From: Bacteroidota bacterium
Lineage (GTDB): Bacteria; Bacteroidota; Bacteroidia; Palsa-948
Direction of reading: 5' to 3'
Length of the DNA stretch: 42,745 nt
Assembly: GCA_016213435.1 (NCBI GenBank)
Contig: JACRAL010000160.1
Coordinates: 1 to 42,745 of the forward strand
Shown here one piece after another: positions 4,530-15,572 of this stretch. Position 1 is the first letter of the stretch; each line of letters opens with the position of its first letter. Position numbers and translations under genes: made by a program. Under the pieces are notes generated by a model that saw only the letters and a program-made list of their open reading frames with translations, had not been told where the DNA came from and ran no database searches.

Positions 4530-5156
4530 CTACTCGTTGAAAATATCAAGTATTGTTTTTCCTTTTTCTAGAAAAATTGCATTCAATCCCGCTTTTCTTG
4601 CTCCTTCAATGTGTTGCATGGAGTCGTCAATGAACAGAGTTTCTTCTTTTCGCAACATGTTTTCTTGAACAACCATTTCAAAAATCTCAGCATCGGGTTT
4701 ACGCATTTTTACTTTATGCGACACATAATATCTTTCAAAGACATCCGAAAAAACATTCCGCTTAAATTTATCTTTCATATAGGATGAAAAGGCGGTGAAA
4801 TGAATTTCATTAGTGTTACTAAGTAAAAAAACACGATGGGTTCTTTTGAGTTTATCAAGAAGTTGCACTCGTTCTACTGGAAGATCCAGCAGCATGGCGT
4901 TCCATGCAATGTCAATCTGTGTATCAGAGATTTCCTGTTTACTATACTTCTTTACTTCTCTTCTGAAATCAGCAGGGGTTATTAATCCTTTTTCAAATAA
5001 ATCAAATAATTCCTTTTGATTCTTTTGAGAATAAATGTTGGAAAAGTCGGGTAGCCCCAACTTTGCAAAAGCGATTTCGGTGAGTTTATAGTCTATGTTG
5101 AGGATAACTCCACCGAAGTCAAATATGATATTCTTTATGGATGATGGTATAGTCAA
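4530..5156 (-). CDS. HAD-superfamily phosphatase (YihX-like)
   Basis: 208 residues. Motif I is FDFGGVILNID with nucleophile Asp13; the position two residues later is Gly instead of the usual general-acid Asp, as in the YihX (FDLGNV) branch. Motif II is LLSNTNEIH, motif III the lysine of KMRKPDAEIF, and motif IV LFIDDSMQHIEGA. YihX of E. coli acts on alpha-D-glucose 1-phosphate; activity here is an inference. The only start codon in frame before motif I is TTG at 5156, since an in-frame stop lies just upstream. The gene is divergent from the tRNA and convergent with mce. Confidence 0.85.
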   Translation of the reverse strand: MTIPSSIKNIIFDFGGVILNIDYKLTEIAFAKLGLPDFSNIYSQKNQKELFDLFEKGLITPADFRREVKKYSKQEISDTQIDIAWNAMLLDLPVERVQLLDKLKRTHRVFLLSNTNEIHFTAFSSYMKDKFKRNVFSDVFERYYVSHKVKMRKPDAEIFEMVVQENMLRKEETLFIDDSMQHIEGARKAGLNAIFLEKGKTILDIFNE

Positions 5157-5161
5157 AGTAT

Positions 5162-5169
5162 TAAATTTG
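5162..5169 (+). promoter_or_regulatory. candidate -7 promoter box of the tRNA gene
   Basis: TAAATTTG fits TAnnTTTG and lies 21 bases before the mature tRNA 5' end. No clear -33 element was seen. Confidence 0.4.
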
Positions 5170-5190
5170 CAGGCTCAAAGTTAATAAATA

Positions 5191-5267
5191 GGGCCTATAG
5201 CTCAGTTGGTTAGAGCACTTGACTCATAATCAAGTGGTCCCAGGTTCAAGTCCTGGTGGGCCCACCA
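5191..5267 (+). tRNA. tRNA with CAT anticodon, probably tRNA-Ile2 (lysidine type)
   Basis: 77 bases including an encoded CCA. The 7-bp acceptor stem pairs GGGCCTA with TGGGCCC, with one G-U pair. The D arm is GCTCAGTTGGTTAGAGC, the anticodon stem CTTGA/TCAAG encloses the loop CTCATAA (anticodon CAT), and the T arm carries GGTTCAAGTCC. CAT can be elongator Met or the Ile2 tRNA modified by TilS. The C4-G69 and C5-G68 pairs match known TilS determinants and differ from E. coli elongator tRNA-Met, so I favour Ile2, with moderate certainty on identity. Confidence 0.93.
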
Positions 5268-5276
5268 ACTGTTAAT

Positions 5277-5312
5277 AGAACTCCGTGATTCTCACGGAGT
5301 TCTTTCTTTTTA
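5277..5312 (+). terminator. intrinsic terminator of the tRNA gene
   Basis: Perfect 12-bp stem AGAACTCCGTGA / TCACGGAGTTCT with a 3-base loop, followed by a T-rich stretch (TTCTTTTTAT). It begins 10 bases after the CCA end. Confidence 0.88.
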
Positions 5313-5354
5313 TATCCAAACAGTACAGAATAAGGTCGAGCGAATCCGGTGTTT

Positions 5355-5541
5355 TCATCTCATCAAACTAATATTTCCTTTCTTAGTTACTTTTTCTCCT
5401 GAACTTAAAGTAGCTGTCATATAATAAGCATACACAGCACTGCTCTCCGGTTTTCCTTTGTATGTTCCATCCCACTGAAAGTTTGCATCAGAAGATTCGA
5501 AAATCTTTTCTCCCCATCGGTTATAAATTGAGAAAAATAAA
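5355..5541 (-). pseudogene. remnant of a T9SS type B (gliding-motility-associated) C-terminal sorting domain
   Basis: The last 60 or so residues read SIYNRWGEKIFESSDANFQW, then WDGTYKGKP, VYAYYM and a final KKGNISLMR. This is the signature of the CHU_C / gliding-motility-associated C-terminal domain; compare the intact version in the gene ending at 40313. Upstream of NRWG (beyond about 5541) similarity stops: the sequence there reads as a different ORF on the other strand. There is no FTPNGDG motif, no passenger and no signal peptide. The formal minus-strand ORF reaches 5816 only through this unrelated antisense sequence. I read it as a gene cut off by an insertion or rearrangement. Confidence 0.75.
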
Positions 5542-5952
5542 ACAGTCAATGCAAATGACATCAAATCAGTTCTAAAGAAGAAGTTTAAGAAGGGAGTACG
5601 TTTTAAGATAAAGAAATTAAAAGGCGGATATTTTGAAGCATGGCTCGACAAAGAGGGGAAAGGAATCCGGGTAGATAACCTTGACAAACAAAACCTGCTG
5701 GAATGGAACGTATTTACCGAAACAGTAACATTCTTAAACAAGAACTCCGGCAGAGCCGAAAGAGGCAATGCTATGATGTATAAACTGGGAGAATCCGGAT
5801 TAACATATAAAACCATTGAAGGTCATATAGCCAGAGCCGTTTATGATAGAAAAGAAGGAGAGAGTGTTTTCCGTAGAATAACTCCTATTGCTCAAATACT
5901 CACTTGGGCTGGTGTCTGTAAACCGATCAAGGGGAAACTTGCTCTTGCTTAA
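5542..5952 (+). pseudogene. unrecognised ORF fragment without start codon
   Basis: An open plus-strand frame of about 136 codons ending at TAA 5950-5952. It has protein-like composition: NDIKSVLKKKFKKGVRFKI, a FEAWLDKEGKGIRVDNL stretch, and GESVFRRITPIAQILTWAG near the end. It has no ATG before the internal Met pair at about 5767-5772, so it is probably 5'-truncated at its junction with the T9SS remnant. I do not recognise the family. It converges with the TGT-like/Rep pair on the minus strand and may be part of the same foreign segment. Confidence 0.45.
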
Positions 5953-6281: not shown

Positions 6282-7148
6282 CTATTTATATAAATTCTCC
6301 CAAACTACTCCACGTGCTGCCCACAACTTGGTGTAAAAATCTTCTGCATCTTTTTGGATTTTTATTGATACCCGTGTAAGTCTTTCCTGATCTAATTCCA
6401 TTTTTTCAAAATTCATAGGAAACAAATAACGTATGTCTTTCTTTTTTACCGCTGCTTTCATAGTTAAAACCTTACCATAGGCTGTTGGTACAACTTTATT
6501 CATATAGGGTATAACCAATGCGGAAGTTGAATCAGTACTGTAAAACGGATATTTTTCTAAGATTGAACTTCGTGTCATTGCAAAACCATGTAAGCGAATT
6601 TTATCGCGTGTTATATTGAATATTTTTCCGTAAAGATTACGATCGAAACTGTCTTGTGAAATACCTATGTACGTAATCCCATCGTCAATCCATTCCCTGA
6701 GAGTAGTAAGATATTCTTTGCCTTGTACTTCGTCCAGATATGGATGATAAACTCGCAGGTATGTAAAATTTCCTCCTATGCTTCTGGCGTTCTTTGCCAT
6801 TTGGTTTACAAAATCAATTCCGAGATCATCGGTGTGATAAGCATCAAGTTCAGCAAACACCCATTTTTTATCCTTGTATTTTTCAATCATTCTCATATAT
6901 GCGTTGGCATGTGTCTTGGCAGGAGGAGGTCTTTTTCCTGCATGTAATCCCACTTTATTAATGTTGAATTTTACATAGCTATGACCACCTGAGTCAACAA
7001 AAAGAGGTAGGGGATGGTTATATTTTTCTATGTAAGCCCGTTCACGCAATGCTGAATATAATTTGGTAACTCCGTAGTCGGCACATATATCAGCGTATGT
7101 AATAGGACTTCTTGATATTTTCCCTCCGCCTGCTGCAATTATTTTCAT
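6282..7148 (-). CDS. TIM-barrel protein of the tRNA-guanine transglycosylase / DpdA-like group
   Basis: 288 residues. Motifs in order: LFVDSGGHSY (Asp52, matching the DSGGFQ general-base motif of TGT), AELDA (residues 99-103), ITYIGIS (158-164), and HGFAMTRSSILEKYPFYSTD with Asp206 in the STDSTS position, where phage TGT/DpdA-like proteins read YPWYSVDSTS. Family knowledge: TGT exchanges guanine for a 7-deazaguanine in tRNA, and DpdA does so in DNA. Here base modification is an inference. The protein is shorter than bacterial Tgt (about 370) and lacks its zinc-binding tail, which points to the phage/plasmid-type branch. It starts 4 bases after the Rep-like gene ends, so the two form an operon. 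Confidence 0.65.
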   Translation of the reverse strand: MKIIAAGGGKISRSPITYADICADYGVTKLYSALRERAYIEKYNHPLPLFVDSGGHSYVKFNINKVGLHAGKRPPPAKTHANAYMRMIEKYKDKKWVFAELDAYHTDDLGIDFVNQMAKNARSIGGNFTYLRVYHPYLDEVQGKEYLTTLREWIDDGITYIGISQDSFDRNLYGKIFNITRDKIRLHGFAMTRSSILEKYPFYSTDSTSALVIPYMNKVVPTAYGKVLTMKAAVKKKDIRYLFPMNFEKMELDQERLTRVSIKIQKDAEDFYTKLWAARGVVWENLYK

Positions 7149-7152
7149 CTTA

Positions 7153-7629
7153 CTATTTATTTTTATTGGTGGTTGTTTCAGTTAATTTTTCTGAACGATT
7201 GTATAAGTCAAAATTTGATTCGTCTATCAGCATAAGGTCTTTTGTGATGTACATGTTTGCTTTCCTGCTAGGATCAAATATCGTTACCAAGCACCTGTTC
7301 CGCTTATTATTCGAAACCTCTTGCCACATCCGCTCATAATATTTGACACCAAGAGCTTTTGCTTTTACAGATTCCTTGGGCACAAATACAAGAGCATGTA
7401 TGTGATACCCTAGTTTCTCACTAAATGGTTCTGCAACAAAAAATATCTCTCCATCGTATTTCCTTATCCGCTTGTAATAATCCCACATCAGAGTCCGGCA
7501 AGCAGAAAGAGATAGATAATAACTGGAAGTGAACGTGCAGAAGTAATTCCAAGAAATATTATCTATCATCGACATAAGCCCCCTCCTTTTAGATGAGGGG
7601 GCAGCAACAGCAGTAGAAATTATTTTCAT
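7153..7629 (-). CDS. small HUH-type replication initiator (Rep)-like protein
   Basis: 158 residues. Motif order of an HUH endonuclease is visible: motif I-like WNYFCTFTSSYYLS (27-40), motif II GYHIHALVFVP with the H-x-H metal ligands at 76 and 78, and motif III ANMYITKDL with Tyr127 and Lys130 (YxxK, single-tyrosine type). By family knowledge such proteins nick and rejoin a replication origin of ssDNA phages or rolling-circle plasmids. The first 18 residues are encoded partly by a GC-rich hairpin and look unlike the rest; ATG codons at residues 19 (7575) and 21 are plausible true starts. It is directly upstream of the TGT-like gene. No capsid, helicase or integrase gene is nearby. Assignment is by motifs only. 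Confidence 0.55.
   Translation of the reverse strand: MKIISTAVAAPSSKRRGLMSMIDNISWNYFCTFTSSYYLSLSACRTLMWDYYKRIRKYDGEIFFVAEPFSEKLGYHIHALVFVPKESVKAKALGVKYYERMWQEVSNNKRNRCLVTIFDPSRKANMYITKDLMLIDESNFDLYNRSEKLTETTTNKNK
7578..7602. repeat. GC-rich hairpin in the 5' end of the Rep-like gene
   Basis: Perfect 8-bp arms GCCCCCTC / GAGGGGGC around a 9-base loop. It resembles the C/G-rich palindromic family found elsewhere in the window. If translated from the upstream ATG it encodes APSSKRRG. It could instead be a leader structure or a Rep recognition hairpin; the sequence alone does not decide. Confidence 0.6.
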
Positions 7630-8018: not shown

Positions 8019-8405
8019 ATGAAAAAATTATCCATCATATTCCTTTCTCTTTTGTTTTTGGTAAGCACAGTGGGCTTAACCATTAACACTCATTTCTGCG
8101 GGAGATTGCATACGTCAATGATTGTTTTGTTTTCAGAAAAATCATGTGATTGCAAGAATCAAAAAATGCCTATTGGATGTTGCAAGAATGAAACGAAAAT
8201 TGTAAAAATTGCAGATGATTATTCTCCTTCGCAATCGGTTAATATTGTTCCTTCTTATTCTTGTTTGGCGACCCCACTTTTCGCAAACAATTTATTTGTC
8301 TTTTCTGCATCCTGCAATACTTTTTCTTTTTACTTAAACATCCGTCCACCTCTCCTCCATACCGCAGTTTCTCTGCCTGTTTTATACAGGTCAATTTTGA
8401 TTTAA
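8019..8405 (+). CDS. HYC_CC_PP family protein
   Basis: 128 residues. It shows the defining pattern of this Bacteroidota family: N-terminal hydrophobic signal/anchor (MKKLSIIFLSLLFLVSTVGL), then H-F-C in THFCGRL (the HYC position), a CC pair in GCCKNE with nearby CDC, the PP motif in NIRPPLL, and the hydrophobic LYRSILI end. The conserved Cys and His suggest metal or thiol chemistry in the envelope; function is not established. First gene before the heavy-metal genes, 150 bases from the next large ORF, so co-regulation with copper efflux is likely. Confidence 0.8.
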   Translation: MKKLSIIFLSLLFLVSTVGLTINTHFCGRLHTSMIVLFSEKSCDCKNQKMPIGCCKNETKIVKIADDYSPSQSVNIVPSYSCLATPLFANNLFVFSASCNTFSFYLNIRPPLLHTAVSLPVLYRSILI

Positions 8406-8502
8406 TTTTTTTATTTTTTTATTTTAAACGGAAGAATTTTTTCTGTCCGTTCAGAATTGTTTGTAGTCCATGCATCAAAAACGAAGTAACAAAAAAACAA
8501 AA

Positions 8503-8559
8503 ATGAAAAGGGTAATCACGCTATCAGCCCTAACATCAATTTTAATCAAACTCAAATGA
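8503..8559 (+). CDS. possible 18-residue leader peptide
   Basis: ATG at 8503 opens an 18-codon ORF (MKRVITLSALTSILIKLK) whose TGA at 8557-8559 overlaps the ATG of the lipoprotein gene at 8556 in an ATGA junction. It is read in a good A-rich initiation context. It could couple translation to the lipoprotein gene, or be the remnant of a lost gene start. No Cys or His suggests metal sensing. Confidence 0.3.
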   Translation: MKRVITLSALTSILIKLK

Positions 8560-8792
8560 AAAAAACAAACATCTTATCAGTCATTGCAGTTGTGTTTATA
8601 ATGAGCGCCTGCAACAACGCATCAACTAACAACGAACAAAAAAGCGAATTGCAACAAAGCAGCATTGACACAACGAAGTTAAAACCAGGCGAGATTTATT
8701 ATCAATGTGAAATGAATCCAGAAGTTATCTCAGATAAATCCGATTCTTGTCCGAAGTGTGGAATGAATTTGGAGAAAAAAGAAAAAAAATAA
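8556..8792 (+). CDS. lipoprotein with one heavy-metal-binding domain
   Basis: 78 residues. Signal peptide with lipobox ending MSAC (lipidated Cys near residue 19), a polar N/S/Q linker, then the heavy-metal-binding domain signature YYQCEMNPEVISDKSDSCPK followed by CGM. The Cys-x-Met and Cys-x-x-Cys-x-Met ligands suit Cu(I) or Ag(I). Here the usual CPMHPE is CEMNPE, so the His is replaced by Asn. It starts the compact run of efflux genes; its stop is one base before the TolC gene start. A periplasmic or outer-membrane metal-capture role is inferred. Confidence 0.85.
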   Translation: MKKTNILSVIAVVFIMSACNNASTNNEQKSELQQSSIDTTKLKPGEIYYQCEMNPEVISDKSDSCPKCGMNLEKKEKK

Positions 8793-8793
8793 A

Positions 8794-10059
8794 ATGATAA
8801 AATCAAAAATTATTATTACAGCAATTTCGTTCTTGCTTTGGCTTGCAGAGGTAAAAGCACAAACTTTGCTGCAGGCATATATTGATACGGCACTAAAAAA
8901 TAATCCATCTCTGCGGGTATATAACTATCAGTCCGATGCGATGCAGCAAAAAATAAAGCAAAGCAAAGCATTGGATGACCCAATGCTTTATGGTGGCGTT
9001 ATGAACCTTCCGGCTAATTTCAATTTCAGACAGGAAGAAATGACGATGAAGCAAATCGGCATTCAACAAAATTTCAGTGTGGCAAAAAAATATTCTTTAA
9101 AAGGAAATATTGCCAAAAAAGATTTTGAAGCAAGTCAATATGATTTGCTGGCGCAACAATTTATTTTAATCAAGCAAGTGAAACAACAATATTATGATTT
9201 GTATTCGCAAACAAAGGCAATTGAAACTACTCAAAGCAGCATTGATGCAATGAAAGTTTATATTGATATTGCCAACACGCGATATGGCACAGGACAAGGA
9301 ACACAGCAGGATATTTTGAAAGCGCAGGTTGAATTAACAAAAATGATGAATGAGTTAATTAAGATGCAAAGTATGCGTGAAGATGTGATTGCCATTTTCA
9401 ACACGCTGCTTAATCGAAACAAAGCCGATTCAGTTGTTATTCCTGCGGAGATAAAATTTAAGAAAGTTGATTTAATAATGGATTCCATAATGAATGAGGC
9501 GGCCCAAAATAATCCGGAATTGCTTTCATCAAAAAAGATTTTAAGCAAGGACAGCGTTTCGTATGAACTTGCTAAGACCTCAAAGATTCCTGATTTTAAT
9601 ACAGGATTTTGGTATGGGAAAAGACAAGCATTACTGCCCGATGGGAGCAAAGCAGGAGATATGTTAGGGTTTATGATTAGTATAAATCTTCCGCTTTATT
9701 ACAAGAGGAAACAGAATTCGCTTATTGCAGAATCCAACATTAACATTCAAAAAACAGAATCTCAAATAAAGGCGATGCAGAATGAAATTCAGCTTATGCT
9801 TCATCATGCAAAGATTGATGCAAATAAAAACGAAAAACTGATCTCTCTTTTTGAAAAGCAATTGATACCACAGGCAACAGCAAGTCTGAATTCGGGAATT
9901 ATCGGGTACCAGCAAAATAAAATTGATTTTATGACACTTACGGATAATTTTCTTTCGCTCTATAATTATCGTTTGCAGTATTATCAATTAATTGCTGACT
10001 ATTATAAAGCCATTGCTGAATTGGAAATGCTTACAGGGAAAACATTAAATGCACAATAA
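8794..10059 (+). CDS. TolC/CusC-type outer membrane factor
   Basis: 421 residues with an N-terminal signal peptide (cleavage near VKAQ). Two outer-membrane-efflux-protein halves of long coiled-coil helices are seen (around 70-200 and 265-415), with the typical start TLLQAYIDTALKNNPSL and repeated NPEL / LYNYRLQYYQLIADYYKAIA at the end. The family forms trimeric channels connecting the RND pump to the outside. It is cotranscribed with the adaptor and CusA-like pump genes; ATG 8794 follows the previous stop by one base. Confidence 0.92.
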   Translation: MIKSKIIITAISFLLWLAEVKAQTLLQAYIDTALKNNPSLRVYNYQSDAMQQKIKQSKALDDPMLYGGVMNLPANFNFRQEEMTMKQIGIQQNFSVAKKYSLKGNIAKKDFEASQYDLLAQQFILIKQVKQQYYDLYSQTKAIETTQSSIDAMKVYIDIANTRYGTGQGTQQDILKAQVELTKMMNELIKMQSMREDVIAIFNTLLNRNKADSVVIPAEIKFKKVDLIMDSIMNEAAQNNPELLSSKKILSKDSVSYELAKTSKIPDFNTGFWYGKRQALLPDGSKAGDMLGFMISINLPLYYKRKQNSLIAESNINIQKTESQIKAMQNEIQLMLHHAKIDANKNEKLISLFEKQLIPQATASLNSGIIGYQQNKIDFMTLTDNFLSLYNYRLQYYQLIADYYKAIAELEMLTGKTLNAQ

Positions 10060-10060
10060 A

Positions 10061-11374
10061 ATGAAAAAAATAATTATTTCTATTTTAATTCTTGCTTTGC
10101 TTACAACAGCGGGATATTTCAGTTGCAAAAAATGGATTCATTCGGCAGCTGAAAAAATTAAAGCAACGACTGAAAATTCTGATTCTGATATTGACTATTA
10201 CCACTGTGGAATGCACCCGCAAATCACAAGTAATATGCCAGGCAAATGCCCTATATGTGGAATGACGCTCACTCCTGTTTATAAAAACAAAGGAGAAATA
10301 GAAAAAGGTATTGTGCAGATTGACCCTTTAATGGTGCAGAACATTGGGGTAAAAACAGAAGCTGTTGCAAAAAGAAAACTCACCCACACTATTCGTACAA
10401 CAGGAATTGTGGACTATGATGAAACAAAACAAACGGTCATCACTACAAAATTTTCAGGATACATTGAAAAATTATATGTGGATTATATAGGAAAGCATGT
10501 TCAGCAAGGACAACCCTTGTTTGAAATTTACAGTCCCGAATTGGTTGCTGCACAGCAGGAATATTTACAAGCAATTCGTTACGGCAGCACCATGAGAGCC
10601 GCAAATGATTCTGCCGCAAGCAGCGCAGCAAATGAGTTATTGCAGAGCGCAAAGAAAAAATTATTGTATTGGGATATTTCTCCCGCACAGATAAAAGAAT
10701 TGGAACAAACAGCCAACATTAAAAAAACATTGATTATTTATTCACCTTTTTCAGGAGTAGTGATCGAAAAAAATATTTTTGATGGAATGCAGGTTCAGGT
10801 GGGAATGAATTTGTTAAAACTTACAGATATTTCGAAGATGTGGGTGTATGCTGATGTGTATGAAAATGAATTGTCATGGGTCAAAACAGGAGAAACAGTA
10901 GCATTAACATTGCCTAACAATACAGAAAAAACTTTGCGGGGAAAAGTTTCTTATATCTATCCTTTTATTCAGGAGCAGTCGCGAACTGCTAAGATGCGAA
11001 TTGAATTTTTAAATGAAAATTCTGTTTTGAAAAAGGGTATGTATGTAACCCTAAATATCCAGCCCTCAGTTTCAGTAAACACAATTTCAGTTCCAGAACA
11101 ATCAATCATTCATAGCGGAACACGCGATATTATTGTACTGTCTTTAGGCAATGGAAAATTCAAATCTGTTAATGTGAAACTAGGTGCTTTGGCGGATGGA
11201 TATTATGAAGTGATGGAAGGATTGAATGAAGGAGACACTATTGTAACATCTTCTCAATTCTTAATTGATTCTGAAAGCAATCTCAAATCAGGAACATCGT
11301 CAATCAATAATATGCCCGATATGAAAATGAAAAGCAAGGATGATACTTTAATGAAAATTATGAAGATGAAATAA
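10061..11374 (+). CDS. cusB: CusB-type RND efflux periplasmic adaptor with N-terminal heavy-metal-binding domain
   Basis: 437 residues from the ATG at 10061. That start gives the same TAAAATG junction as the preceding gene; an in-frame ATG at 10049 inside the TolC gene is less likely. After a signal/anchor, residues about 45-75 form a heavy-metal-binding domain (YHCGMHPQI, then GKCPICGM). Next come the membrane-fusion barrel-sandwich parts (YIEKLYVDYIGKHVQQGQPL, IYSPFSGVV), a beta-barrel domain, and a Met-rich tail (MPDMKMKSKDDTLMKIMKMK) able to bind Cu(I). Binds the periplasmic face of the pump and passes metal to it. Confidence 0.92.
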   Translation: MKKIIISILILALLTTAGYFSCKKWIHSAAEKIKATTENSDSDIDYYHCGMHPQITSNMPGKCPICGMTLTPVYKNKGEIEKGIVQIDPLMVQNIGVKTEAVAKRKLTHTIRTTGIVDYDETKQTVITTKFSGYIEKLYVDYIGKHVQQGQPLFEIYSPELVAAQQEYLQAIRYGSTMRAANDSAASSAANELLQSAKKKLLYWDISPAQIKELEQTANIKKTLIIYSPFSGVVIEKNIFDGMQVQVGMNLLKLTDISKMWVYADVYENELSWVKTGETVALTLPNNTEKTLRGKVSYIYPFIQEQSRTAKMRIEFLNENSVLKKGMYVTLNIQPSVSVNTISVPEQSIIHSGTRDIIVLSLGNGKFKSVNVKLGALADGYYEVMEGLNEGDTIVTSSQFLIDSESNLKSGTSSINNMPDMKMKSKDDTLMKIMKMK

Positions 11375-11427
11375 TCTGCGTAAATCATTATAAATATACA
11401 GTCAATTAACAATTTAAATCCCAATCA

Positions 11428-12330
11428 ATGAAAACACTAAAAACAATTCTTTTGCTTGTTCTGCTATCAACAGCAATTGCTTCTTCAATTAATGCACAGG
11501 GCTGCCATAGTGGTGGTGGCAATATGGGCAGCATGAACCATAACGCCAGTTCTGAGAACACTGACAATAAGTATGCTTCGTATGGGGGCACAGTAAAACA
11601 GGTGGGCAAATACAATATTGAAATGGTTTACCAGCCATTGTTTGCCAAAGACCCGCTTACTTTTTACCTGATGAATAAAAAGGGAAAACCGTTGAGCAAT
11701 CAGGGAATTGTTAGCAAAGCGGAAATTACATATACAGATAAAAGCACAGGAACAATAACGTTGAAAGCCATAGGCGAAAATGGATTTGCAGGACAAATGG
11801 CAAATAAAACAAGTTCATTTATCTGCTTTTTAACCTTGCAAATAAATGGAGAAAATATAACCGCGCGATTTGATGGGGGGACTGGTGGAAAAGAACATGC
11901 AGCAGCAGAATCCGGTTATGTCTGCTCCATGCACCCTGAAGTGCAGTCCGACAAACCCGGCAACTGCCCAAAATTCGGCATGGCGCTGGTAAAGAAATCA
12001 GAAACATCAGGGATGAAAATGAAGTGCGGAATGATGGCTGGAATGAGTGATATGAATAAAATGGAGAATAATACTTTGTCTGAAAACAATGCTACCGAAA
12101 AAGATACTGTCATTTATAGCTGTTCCATGCACCCCGAAGTACAGTCGAACAAACCCGGCAACTGTTCTAAGTGCGGAATGACGCTGGAAAAAAAGACGGT
12201 TCAAGTACCCAATTTAAAAACTGAAAAGAAGGAGATAGCAAAGACATACACTTGTTCAATGCACCCTGAAGTGAAATTGGATAAGCCTAGCAACTGTCCA
12301 AAATGTGGAATGAAACTTATTAAGAAATAA
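11428..12330 (+). CDS. secreted protein with three heavy-metal-binding domains
   Basis: 300 residues. A signal peptide ends INAQG. The next part is a His/Met-rich stretch and a beta domain (about 40-150) of unknown type. Then come three copies of the heavy-metal-binding domain near 163, 229 and 273, each built on CSMHPEV followed by CPKCGM. In the first copy the motif reads CPKFGM, so one Cys is lost; the second reads CSKCGM. A Met-rich linker (MKMKCGMMAGMSDMNKM) separates copies 1 and 2. It lies between adaptor and pump genes, 11 bases before the pump. A periplasmic Cu/Ag buffer or chaperone is the likely role. Confidence 0.88.
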   Translation: MKTLKTILLLVLLSTAIASSINAQGCHSGGGNMGSMNHNASSENTDNKYASYGGTVKQVGKYNIEMVYQPLFAKDPLTFYLMNKKGKPLSNQGIVSKAEITYTDKSTGTITLKAIGENGFAGQMANKTSSFICFLTLQINGENITARFDGGTGGKEHAAAESGYVCSMHPEVQSDKPGNCPKFGMALVKKSETSGMKMKCGMMAGMSDMNKMENNTLSENNATEKDTVIYSCSMHPEVQSNKPGNCSKCGMTLEKKTVQVPNLKTEKKEIAKTYTCSMHPEVKLDKPSNCPKCGMKLIKK

Positions 12331-12341
12331 TTCAGGAAACA

Positions 12342-15300
12342 ATGAAAAAAATAATTGAATGGTCAATTGATAATAAATTTTTTGTCATACTGCTTACCGT
12401 TGCGTTAATTGTTGCGGGAATTTATTCAATCCAAAACATCAAGATTGATGCGATACCTGATTTAAGCGATGTGCAGGTAATTGTTTATACCGAATATCCG
12501 GGGCAGGCAGCAGAACTTACCGAGCAGCAGGTAACCTATCCGCTCACCACAGCAATGGTATCCGTTCCTCATTCCAAAGTGGTGCGGGGGTATTCTTTTT
12601 TCGGTGTGTCAATGGTCTATGTAATTTTTGAAGATGGAACAGATTTATATTGGGCGCGAAGCCGCGTGCTGGAATATCTCAACTACGCATCTTCCAAACT
12701 TCCTGCGAATGTAAAACCTGCAATCGGTCCTGATGCAACGGGCTTAGGATGGGTGTATCAATATGCTTTGACAAGTGATAAGCGAGATCTGGGAGAATTG
12801 CGTTCCATTCAGGATTGGTACTTACGCTATCAACTTACAAGTGTTGAAGGTGTTGCAGAAGTGGCAAGCATTGGTGGCTATGTTCGTAATTATCGCGTAA
12901 CCGTTGACCCAGTGAAAATGAAGGCATACAATATTTCTTTAATGCAAGTGGAAGAAGCAATAAAGAGAAGCAATAACGATGCGGGCGGTGAAACTATTGA
13001 AATGGGAGAAATGGAATTTATGATTCGCGGAAAAGGATATTTGAAAACGCTTGATGATTTCAACCATATTCCGGTTGGCCTAAGTCGCCTTCAACAGCAA
13101 TCATCAGCGATGAATGAGCCAATCCCATCGCAAACGGGTTCTTCAATGGATGGCGGGGGTTCTGCTTCCCCTGCCAATCAACCGCTTAATCAAGCTACAA
13201 TTTTCTCTGCAGGGACACCCATTTATTTGAAAGACATAGCCACCATCTCTATTGAACCTTCCGCCCGCAGAGGCATAGCGGAACTAAATGGCAAAGGTGA
13301 AACCGTTGGCGGAATCATTGTGATGCGCGATAAACAAAATGCAACAGCTACCATTGATGGAGTAAAGAAAAAATTAGAAGAATTAAAAGCAGGGTTACCA
13401 CCCGATGTAAAAATTACTACCATTTATGACCGTTCATCCCTAATAAAAAGAAGTATTGAAACTTTGCGCGACAAATTAATTGAAGAAGCAATAATCGTTT
13501 CACTCGTTTGTTTGCTTTTTCTTTTTCATTTCCGCAGTGGCTTGGTTGCCATTATTATGCTGCCCATTGCCATTCTTATTTCATTTATTGTAATGAACAT
13601 ACAAGGCATCAACGCCAACATTATGTCGCTTGGCGGAATTGCCATTGCCATCGGAGCAATGGTGGATTCGGCTATTATCATGATTGAAAATGCGCATAAA
13701 CATATTGAGCGCAGTGATGGGACAAAAGACCGTTGGCAAATCATTAAAGAAGCTTCTGTTGAAGTGGGTCCCACATTATTTTTCGCATTACTGCTCATTA
13801 CTGTTTCTTTCTTTCCCATTTTCACTTTGCAAGATCAGGAAGGGAGATTATTTAAGCCGCTGGCATTCACAAAAACATACGCAATGGCAGGAGCAGCTTT
13901 TCTTTCTGTAACGCTTGTGCCGGTGCTCATGGGATTATTAATCAGGGGTAAAATTCCTAAGGAAGAAAAAAATCCGCTGAACCGCCTGATGATAAAACTC
14001 TATCACCCCGTTTTAAATTTTGTTTTGCGGTTTAGAAAATCAGTTTTAGTTGTTGCGGCTTTTGTACTTGCAGCCACAATTTTTCCGTACAGCAAATTAG
14101 GTTCTGAATTTATGCCGCCATTGTGGGAAGGGGATTTGCTGTATATGCCTTCCAGTTTCCCTGGCATTTCAATTACAAAAGCAAAGGAGGTCTTGCAGCA
14201 AACCGATAAAATAATTAAAACATTTCCGGAAGTAGAGAATGTTTTTGGAAAAATGGGAAGAGCCGGAACCTCCACCGATCCGGCTCCGCTTGATATGGTT
14301 GAGACTACAATCACACTAAAGCCCGAAAGCGAATGGCGTAAAGGAATGACACCCGACCAACTCATCCAGGAAATGGATAGGGCATTGCAGGTTCCGGGGC
14401 TTACCAATGTATGGACAATGCCGATAAAAAACAGAATAGATATGTTAAGCACGGGGATCAAAACTCCTGTTGGAATTAAAATTGGAGGAGCGAACTTACA
14501 CGTGCTTGACAGTTTAGGAAAACAAATGGAGAGCATCATGCGCACCGTTCAGGGAACTGCATCTGCCTATTCCGAACGAGTGCTGGGCGGTAATTACATT
14601 GACTTCAACATTAACCGCGAAGCAGCCGCCCGTTATGGAATTACCATTTCAGATGTGCAGAATGTTATTCAAACTGCCATTGGAGGAATGGATGTTTCAA
14701 GCACAGTAGAAGGATTGGAACGCTACCCGATTTCCATCAGATATCCACGAGAGTTAAGAGATAATTTAGAAAACCTGAAGCGCGTTTTAGTTCCTGCGCC
14801 AACAGGAGCCCAAATTCCTTTGGAACAATTAGCAGCTTTTGAAATTCATAAGGGGCCAATGCTCATTCGCAGCGAAGGCAGCCGTCCGCAGGTTTGGGTT
14901 TTTGTGGATGTGCGCGGAACAGACATCGGAACGTATATCAAAAACGCGCAAAAAATTGTCGAAGAAAAATTTAAACTCCCGCCAAGCTACACGCTTTCGT
15001 GGAGCGGACAGTTTGAATCAATGCAAAGAGCAAAAGAAAGATTACTCTGGATAATTCCGTTAACGCTGCTCATTATTTTTGTAATCCTCTATCTCAATAC
15101 AAAATCATTTACAAAAGTTGGTATCATATTTCTTGCTGTGCCGTTCTCATTAGTTGGTGCATTTTGGTTATTATATTTTCTTGGATATAATTTAAGCATA
15201 GCAGTTTGGGTCGGAATAATTGCACTTGCCGGATTAGATGCAGAAACGGGAGTAGTTATGCTTTTGTATTTGGATTTGGCTTATGATGAAATGAAACAGA

Positions 15301-15572
15301 AAGGACAAATGCTCACAAAAGAAAATCTTACAGAAGCCATTCATTACGGGGCGGTAAAACGCATCCGTCCGAAAATTATGACAGCAACAGCTATTATTGC
15401 CGGATTACTTCCCATTCTTTGGAGCACAGGCACAGGAGCAGATGTAATGAAACGTATTGCGGCCCCAATGGTCGGTGGAGTTGTTACAAGTGTATTGCTT
15501 GAATTATTAGTTTATCCTGTTATTTATTATTTGTGGAAGAATAGGGAGATAAAAAATATTTTGAAAGTTTAA
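12342..15572 (+). CDS. cusA: CusA-type Cu(I)/Ag(I) RND efflux pump
   Basis: 1076 residues, full-length heavy-metal-efflux RND protein with 12 membrane segments and two periplasmic porter loops. The TM4 signature GGIAIAIGAMVDSAIIMIEN (Asp442) matches CusA, not the CzcA DFG-type motif. Met602 (LLYMPSS), Met652 (PLDMVETT) and Met701 (NRIDMLSTG) have exactly the 50- and 49-residue spacing of the CusA metal-binding triad M573/M623/M672. A Gln/Ser/Gly-rich loop near residues 250-285 (SSAMNEPIPSQTGSSMDGG) looks like a lineage-specific insertion. It is the last gene of the operon; no terminator hairpin was seen after it. Confidence 0.96.
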   Translation: MKKIIEWSIDNKFFVILLTVALIVAGIYSIQNIKIDAIPDLSDVQVIVYTEYPGQAAELTEQQVTYPLTTAMVSVPHSKVVRGYSFFGVSMVYVIFEDGTDLYWARSRVLEYLNYASSKLPANVKPAIGPDATGLGWVYQYALTSDKRDLGELRSIQDWYLRYQLTSVEGVAEVASIGGYVRNYRVTVDPVKMKAYNISLMQVEEAIKRSNNDAGGETIEMGEMEFMIRGKGYLKTLDDFNHIPVGLSRLQQQSSAMNEPIPSQTGSSMDGGGSASPANQPLNQATIFSAGTPIYLKDIATISIEPSARRGIAELNGKGETVGGIIVMRDKQNATATIDGVKKKLEELKAGLPPDVKITTIYDRSSLIKRSIETLRDKLIEEAIIVSLVCLLFLFHFRSGLVAIIMLPIAILISFIVMNIQGINANIMSLGGIAIAIGAMVDSAIIMIENAHKHIERSDGTKDRWQIIKEASVEVGPTLFFALLLITVSFFPIFTLQDQEGRLFKPLAFTKTYAMAGAAFLSVTLVPVLMGLLIRGKIPKEEKNPLNRLMIKLYHPVLNFVLRFRKSVLVVAAFVLAATIFPYSKLGSEFMPPLWEGDLLYMPSSFPGISITKAKEVLQQTDKIIKTFPEVENVFGKMGRAGTSTDPAPLDMVETTITLKPESEWRKGMTPDQLIQEMDRALQVPGLTNVWTMPIKNRIDMLSTGIKTPVGIKIGGANLHVLDSLGKQMESIMRTVQGTASAYSERVLGGNYIDFNINREAAARYGITISDVQNVIQTAIGGMDVSSTVEGLERYPISIRYPRELRDNLENLKRVLVPAPTGAQIPLEQLAAFEIHKGPMLIRSEGSRPQVWVFVDVRGTDIGTYIKNAQKIVEEKFKLPPSYTLSWSGQFESMQRAKERLLWIIPLTLLIIFVILYLNTKSFTKVGIIFLAVPFSLVGAFWLLYFLGYNLSIAVWVGIIALAGLDAETGVVMLLYLDLAYDEMKQKGQMLTKENLTEAIHYGAVKRIRPKIMTATAIIAGLLPILWSTGTGADVMKRIAAPMVGGVVTSVLLELLVYPVIYYLWKNREIKNILKV

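Follow-up and report, generated by a model that had tools for sequence, protein, structure and literature searches.

We analyzed a pair of adjacent genes, here called gene A and gene B, on contig JACRAL010000160.1 of a Bacteroidota bacterium (Palsa-948; assembly GCA_016213435.1), positions 1-42,745 of which are referred to below as the window. An earlier note had read the pair as a two-gene module joining a HUH Rep-like protein to a base-exchange enzyme resembling tRNA-guanine transglycosylase (TGT) or DpdA. Its description of the locus was reproduced in both coordinates and frames, with two minus-strand genes separated by 4 bases (Table 1), a gap that is compatible with a single transcript. 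Both frames are full length, without internal stops, and keep every family-invariant residue. The residues singled out in the note are also present, namely H76 and H78 (within GYHIHALV) and Y127-I-T-K130 in gene A, and D52-S-G-G and Y-S-T-D206-S-T-S in gene B. Judged by conservation, these motifs are more than chance, because H76, H78, Y127 and K130 are invariant in homologues of gene A down to 22% identity, and all 50 homologues of gene B, most of them 18-30% identical to it, keep D52, D102, H135, H187 and D206.

Gene B is by homology a phage-type DpdA, that is, a DNA-guanine transglycosylase of the DNA type and not a tRNA TGT. We assign it in this way because it matches PHROG 887 (named queuine tRNA-ribosyltransferase; E 1.3e-11), because a profile of the 50 homologues matched one solved protein well, the DNA-guanine transglycosylase of PDB 7ui4 (E 5.2e-5), because its predicted structure is a TIM barrel and because it groups with the DpdA of a phage that carries a preQ0 cassette. 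All five invariant positions align with 7ui4, and from its place before the second motif H187 would correspond to the conserved histidine H196 in the DpdA numbering of PMC6884629. The barrel, the object of a structural check proposed in the earlier note, was predicted with confidence (mean predicted local distance difference test score (pLDDT) of 83.8, predicted template modelling score of 0.84), with strands and helices alternating. The best Foldseek matches of the model are TIM barrels, and this model-based comparison supports the barrel, not the family. In a maximum-likelihood tree of 57 proteins, gene B forms a clade (support 100/98) with a second DpdA encoded in this genome (contig C138) and with the DpdA of phage contig L058. 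The matches found in INPHARED by tblastn are annotated phage DpdA or queuine tRNA-ribosyltransferase genes, many of which lie in clusters for preQ0 synthesis; relatives in such clusters include those of Escherichia phage VogelGryff, Microcystis phage Me-ZS1, Providencia phage PSTCR4 and Mycobacterium phage Cracklewink. Relatives of gene B were absent from the plasmid records searched. The earlier TGT/DpdA-like assignment was right in kind and can be narrowed to the phage DNA-type DpdA.

Gene B resembles the DpdA of the Enterobacteria phage 9g or Seuratvirus type (Hutinet et al. 2019, PMC6884629) in length (~290-310 amino acids), in the DSG[AG] and S-x-DS[ST] motifs, in the conserved histidine before the second motif and in the TIM-barrel fold, at only ~22-26% identity. 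Unlike that type, it lies in a bacterial chromosome, has neither preQ0 genes nor a ParB partner nearby, and adjoins a HUH gene. Its nearest phage relative is the DpdA of L058 (IMGVR_UViG_3300027973_000277), which is 36-37% identical and sits in the gene order FolE, QueD, QueC, a protein, a DpdA paralogue, ParB, DpdA, ParB, QueE; gene B, unlike it, lacks this FolE-QueD-QueC-DpdA-ParB-DpdA-ParB-QueE cassette. With Salmonella DpdA, from the bacterial Dpd restriction-modification island (7ui4), it shares the profile similarity and the aligned invariant positions; unlike that island, no DpdB/DpdC-like or nuclease gene was seen beside gene B. PADLOC matched neither gene A nor gene B. Among the phage relatives, a gut phage record (L056, MT835482.1) has a long insert resembling an intein or homing element, into which the DpdA frame passes just behind its second active-site motif (~5130-5600). 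The relative in Streptomyces phage BRock (L050, 3968-5470) is longer, at 500 amino acids, and has serine in place of the second catalytic aspartate (ESVSSTSW), and is perhaps inactive or altered.

Gene A is a predicted HUH Rep-like protein, and here too the earlier assignment proved correct in kind, on the strength of its family matches and of the invariant HxH and YxxK motifs. Queried alone, it matched PF23343 (REP_ORF2-G2P) with an E value of 0.015, below the Pfam cut-off (16 of 27.8 bits); two of five members of its family matched the same model, the best at 2.6e-7. A profile of the family matched PDB 2x3g (E 8.4e-4) across the HxH region, the protein being SIRV1 ORF119, a known Rep nickase. 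The likeness to Rep proteins of the REP_ORF2-G2P and SIRV1 ORF119 type extends to the order and spacing of HxH and YxxK; unlike them, gene A is not accompanied by capsid genes or other genes of small viruses. Its predicted structure is poor (mean pLDDT of 58.8), and the top Foldseek matches, which include the Rep domains of adeno-associated virus and parvovirus at E values of 0.04 or worse, are suggestive only. Relatives of gene A were found in a viral contig (E 7e-20, a value relative to the candidates only) and in another genome (1.6e-15). One relative adjoins a helix-turn-helix gene and a tyrosine recombinase, together with defence-like genes (L029), others lie near integrase and resolvase genes (L030, L031) or recombinases (L049), and one is in a tailed-phage contig (L011); DpdA is absent from all of these loci.

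To establish what accompanies phage-type DpdA, viral contigs were scanned with the gene B family profile. At least 308 contigs encode relatives, and 80 loci were kept, some of them near-duplicates. At least one of FolE, QueC, QueD and QueE is present in 69 of the 80 loci and a ParB-like gene in 57. The ParB-like gene immediately follows DpdA, often with an overlap of ~33 bases, in 48 of the 80 (L058-L137) and again at the C138 locus, whereas the HUH gene was found in none of the 80. The recurrent partners of DpdA are thus the preQ0-synthesis genes and a ParB-like gene, and its immediate partner is ParB-like, not a replication nickase. The ParB-like protein might supply the choice of DNA target or an NTPase activity. 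No ParB remnant was found downstream of gene B in the window. The second DpdA of the genome (L028, contig C138, 354-1804 together with its ParB-like gene) is 41% identical to gene B, and the ParB-like gene overlaps its end, as in phages. The island that carries it ends at a 15-nucleotide copy of the tRNA-Glu 3' end (~2873-2887), followed by the same sequence that lies downstream of the intact tRNA-Glu on contig C35, and is probably an element integrated in a tRNA-Glu gene.

The earlier note had inferred that genes A and B form a small replicon or relic that may mark its own DNA, or a tRNA, while replicating as a rolling circle, and had named absence of the pair from any other genome as a finding that would refute the idea. 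As far as searched, the pair is absent. Among 98 DpdA loci and 17 HUH loci fetched, the only overlap consists of four copies of the window itself, and a coupled HUH-DpdA module is unsupported. Neither gene was found at a credible score in six other genomes of the same genus, in one of which a match to gene A (E 0.0097) has an internal stop, and samples of 395 phylum and 395 class genomes held no gene B beyond that of its own genome. Scans of 84,980 genomes for nearest relatives also found nothing, the motif patterns used being narrow and the scans hence not exhaustive.

No queuosine or preQ0 synthesis gene (FolE, QueC, QueD or QueE) is present in the window, which agrees with the earlier observation that none is adjacent to the pair. 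One search of the assembly, which is 97.12% complete, found no QueC, the sole QueC-family match being the N-acetyl sugar amidotransferase WbuX (3.6e-84). Because QueC was not found in an assembly of this completeness, the host is probably unable to make preQ0, and gene B would then work only on a preQ0-type base supplied from outside. Some phages with DpdA are known to have hosts that lack preQ0 genes (PMC6884629). Orphan DpdA genes have also been described in phages that themselves lack preQ0 genes (PMC6884629), so that the missing genes do not exclude gene B from the DpdA family. On the pair as such we found nothing in the literature on DpdA with rolling-circle or satellite elements; the statement in the note that no described minimal system of this pair was known misses these orphan DpdA genes.

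Table 1. Features of the window around genes A and B
Feature	Position	Strand	Description
Gene A, putative HUH Rep-like	7153..7629	minus	Small, single domain; 158 amino acids, ATG start; from homology and conserved residues
Gene A, H76	7402-7404	minus	
Gene A, H78	7396-7398	minus	
Gene A, Y127	7249-7251	minus	
Gene A, K130		minus	
Intergenic gap	7149..7152	minus	4 bases between gene A stop and gene B start
Gene B, putative phage-type DpdA	6282..7148	minus	288 amino acids, ATG start; from homology, fold model and tree
Gene B, D52	6993-6995	minus	
Gene B, D102, H135 and H187		minus	
Gene B, D206	6531-6533	minus	
tRNA-Met (CAT)	5191..5267	plus	Last feature in common with congeneric species; synteny is lost immediately beyond it
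CHU_C (type IX secretion signal) gene	5355..5545	minus	Truncated C-terminal piece; overlaps the next feature at ~5527-5545
Start-less open frame	5527..5952	plus	141 codons; probable gene remnant downstream of the pair, in the accessory region
Heavy-metal efflux operon	8019-15572		Right of the pair; outer-membrane factor, CusB-like and RND (resistance-nodulation-division) pump genes with heavy-metal-binding domains

We place the pair in an accessory region beside a tRNA-Met gene of the Bacteroidota chromosome, because synteny breaks after the tRNA, the CHU_C piece and the start-less remnant lie to the left and the efflux operon lies to the right. Gene order in the left part of the window matches that of the genus as far as tRNA-Met, after which every relative differs; comparison across the genus gave no clean empty site, each relative having different genes after the tRNA. 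The remnant is 43% identical over 96 amino acids to a hypothetical protein of a Pseudomonas luteola plasmid, and the efflux operon has no extended match in other genomes of the genus. A repeat of the tRNA-Met 3' end was sought as the end of an element, and there is no second copy in the window. A stretch of 67 nucleotides at 5278-5344 (the terminator hairpin and ~30 nucleotides) recurs with 90-91% identity at C35:29441-29507 and C138:2899-2965. It was rejected as an att site because it includes the tRNA terminator hairpin, follows tRNA loci in all three places, and has its terminator part, without the extra 30 nucleotides, after the tRNA-Met of a genus relative (L035).

We consider it probable that genes A and B sit side by side as cargo of an integrated mobile element, or as what is left of one, and that they act independently of each other. 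The context is read as mobile because relatives of gene A lie near recombinases and in a phage contig, both genes are absent from the six other genus genomes, and synteny breaks at tRNA-Met. Several observations weigh against this interpretation. The 4-base spacing, the shared strand and the two intact frames could mean that the genes work jointly; neither an integrase nor an att repeat was detected next to the pair, so that the element is deduced and not outlined; Foldseek matched gene B to generic TIM barrels, and the 50 matches listed include neither a TGT nor a DpdA; and the absence of QueC comes from a single search of an assembly that is not quite complete. By homology, Asp206 of gene B would attack C1' of deoxyguanosine and Asp52 would handle the proton, with guanine leaving and a 7-deazaguanine such as preQ0 entering the DNA. 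In gene A, His76 and His78 would hold the metal and Tyr127 would cut one strand at an origin, stay bound and so start replication or transfer of the element. Genes A and B would have come together because one mobile element, now perhaps in decay, housed both, and the preQ0-type base would be scavenged or would come from a co-infecting phage with its own cassette. We infer from sequence the activities of the two proteins and DNA as the substrate of gene B, and the identity of the element and the supply of the base are offered in the same conditional sense.

The alternative to which we give most weight, though still an unlikely one, is that a decayed element left the two genes behind as unexpressed relics that serve no function today. 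The truncated CHU_C gene and the start-less frame just downstream would fit such decay, as would the lack of a mobility gene beside the pair, of a ParB trace downstream and of a detected QueC, whereas full-length frames that retain every family-invariant residue suggest recent selection or recent arrival. We regard as quite improbable a dedicated system that would combine a HUH protein initiating the rolling-circle replication of a small replicon with a DpdA that modifies the newly made DNA. Adjacency on one strand across 4 bases, intact frames and conserved residues are what such a system would have, but none of the DpdA or HUH loci other than the copies of the window contains the pair, the recurrent neighbour of DpdA is the ParB-like gene of the 48 viral loci and the C138 copy, and neither an origin, replicon ends nor a source of preQ0 was identified. 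Still more speculative, and in our estimate a long shot, is a satellite-like element with its own nickase and an orphan DpdA, the DNA of which would be marked with the preQ0 of a co-infecting phage and would share its protection without the cost of synthesis.

The remaining alternatives concern the single proteins. Since TGT and DpdA share a mechanism, and since PHROG 887 bears the name of the tRNA enzyme, gene B might act on RNA as a TGT. This is very unlikely given that it has no match in Pfam at an E value of 1 or in NCBIfam at 0.01, TGT models included, that among solved proteins it matches the DNA enzyme 7ui4 best, that its relatives cluster with preQ0 cassettes in phages, and that inspection of the sequence found no cysteine in the C-terminal half suited to the TGT zinc site. 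The behavior of phage 9g dpdA, which failed to complement a tgt mutant of E. coli but introduced dPreQ0 into the DNA of a plasmid (PMC6884629), also counts against it. For gene A, a Y1 (IS200/RAYT-like) transposase in place of a replication initiator comes to mind, as these are small HUH proteins too, but it has no match to a Y1 model in Pfam, its profile matches are to the SIRV Rep and to Rep models, its YxxK spacing is Rep-like and no pattern of repeats or terminal palindromes surrounds it, leaving this reading scarcely credible.

Both gene families are already known, and what makes the locus mildly interesting is that a phage-type DpdA stands as an orphan in a host where QueC was not detected. 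If gene B is active, a phage-type DNA-guanine transglycosylase would be at work in a bacterial chromosome seemingly unable to make preQ0, in a genome with two such genes, and the role of orphan DpdA proteins, a question raised for the DpdA-only phages (PMC6884629), would become testable in a cellular setting.
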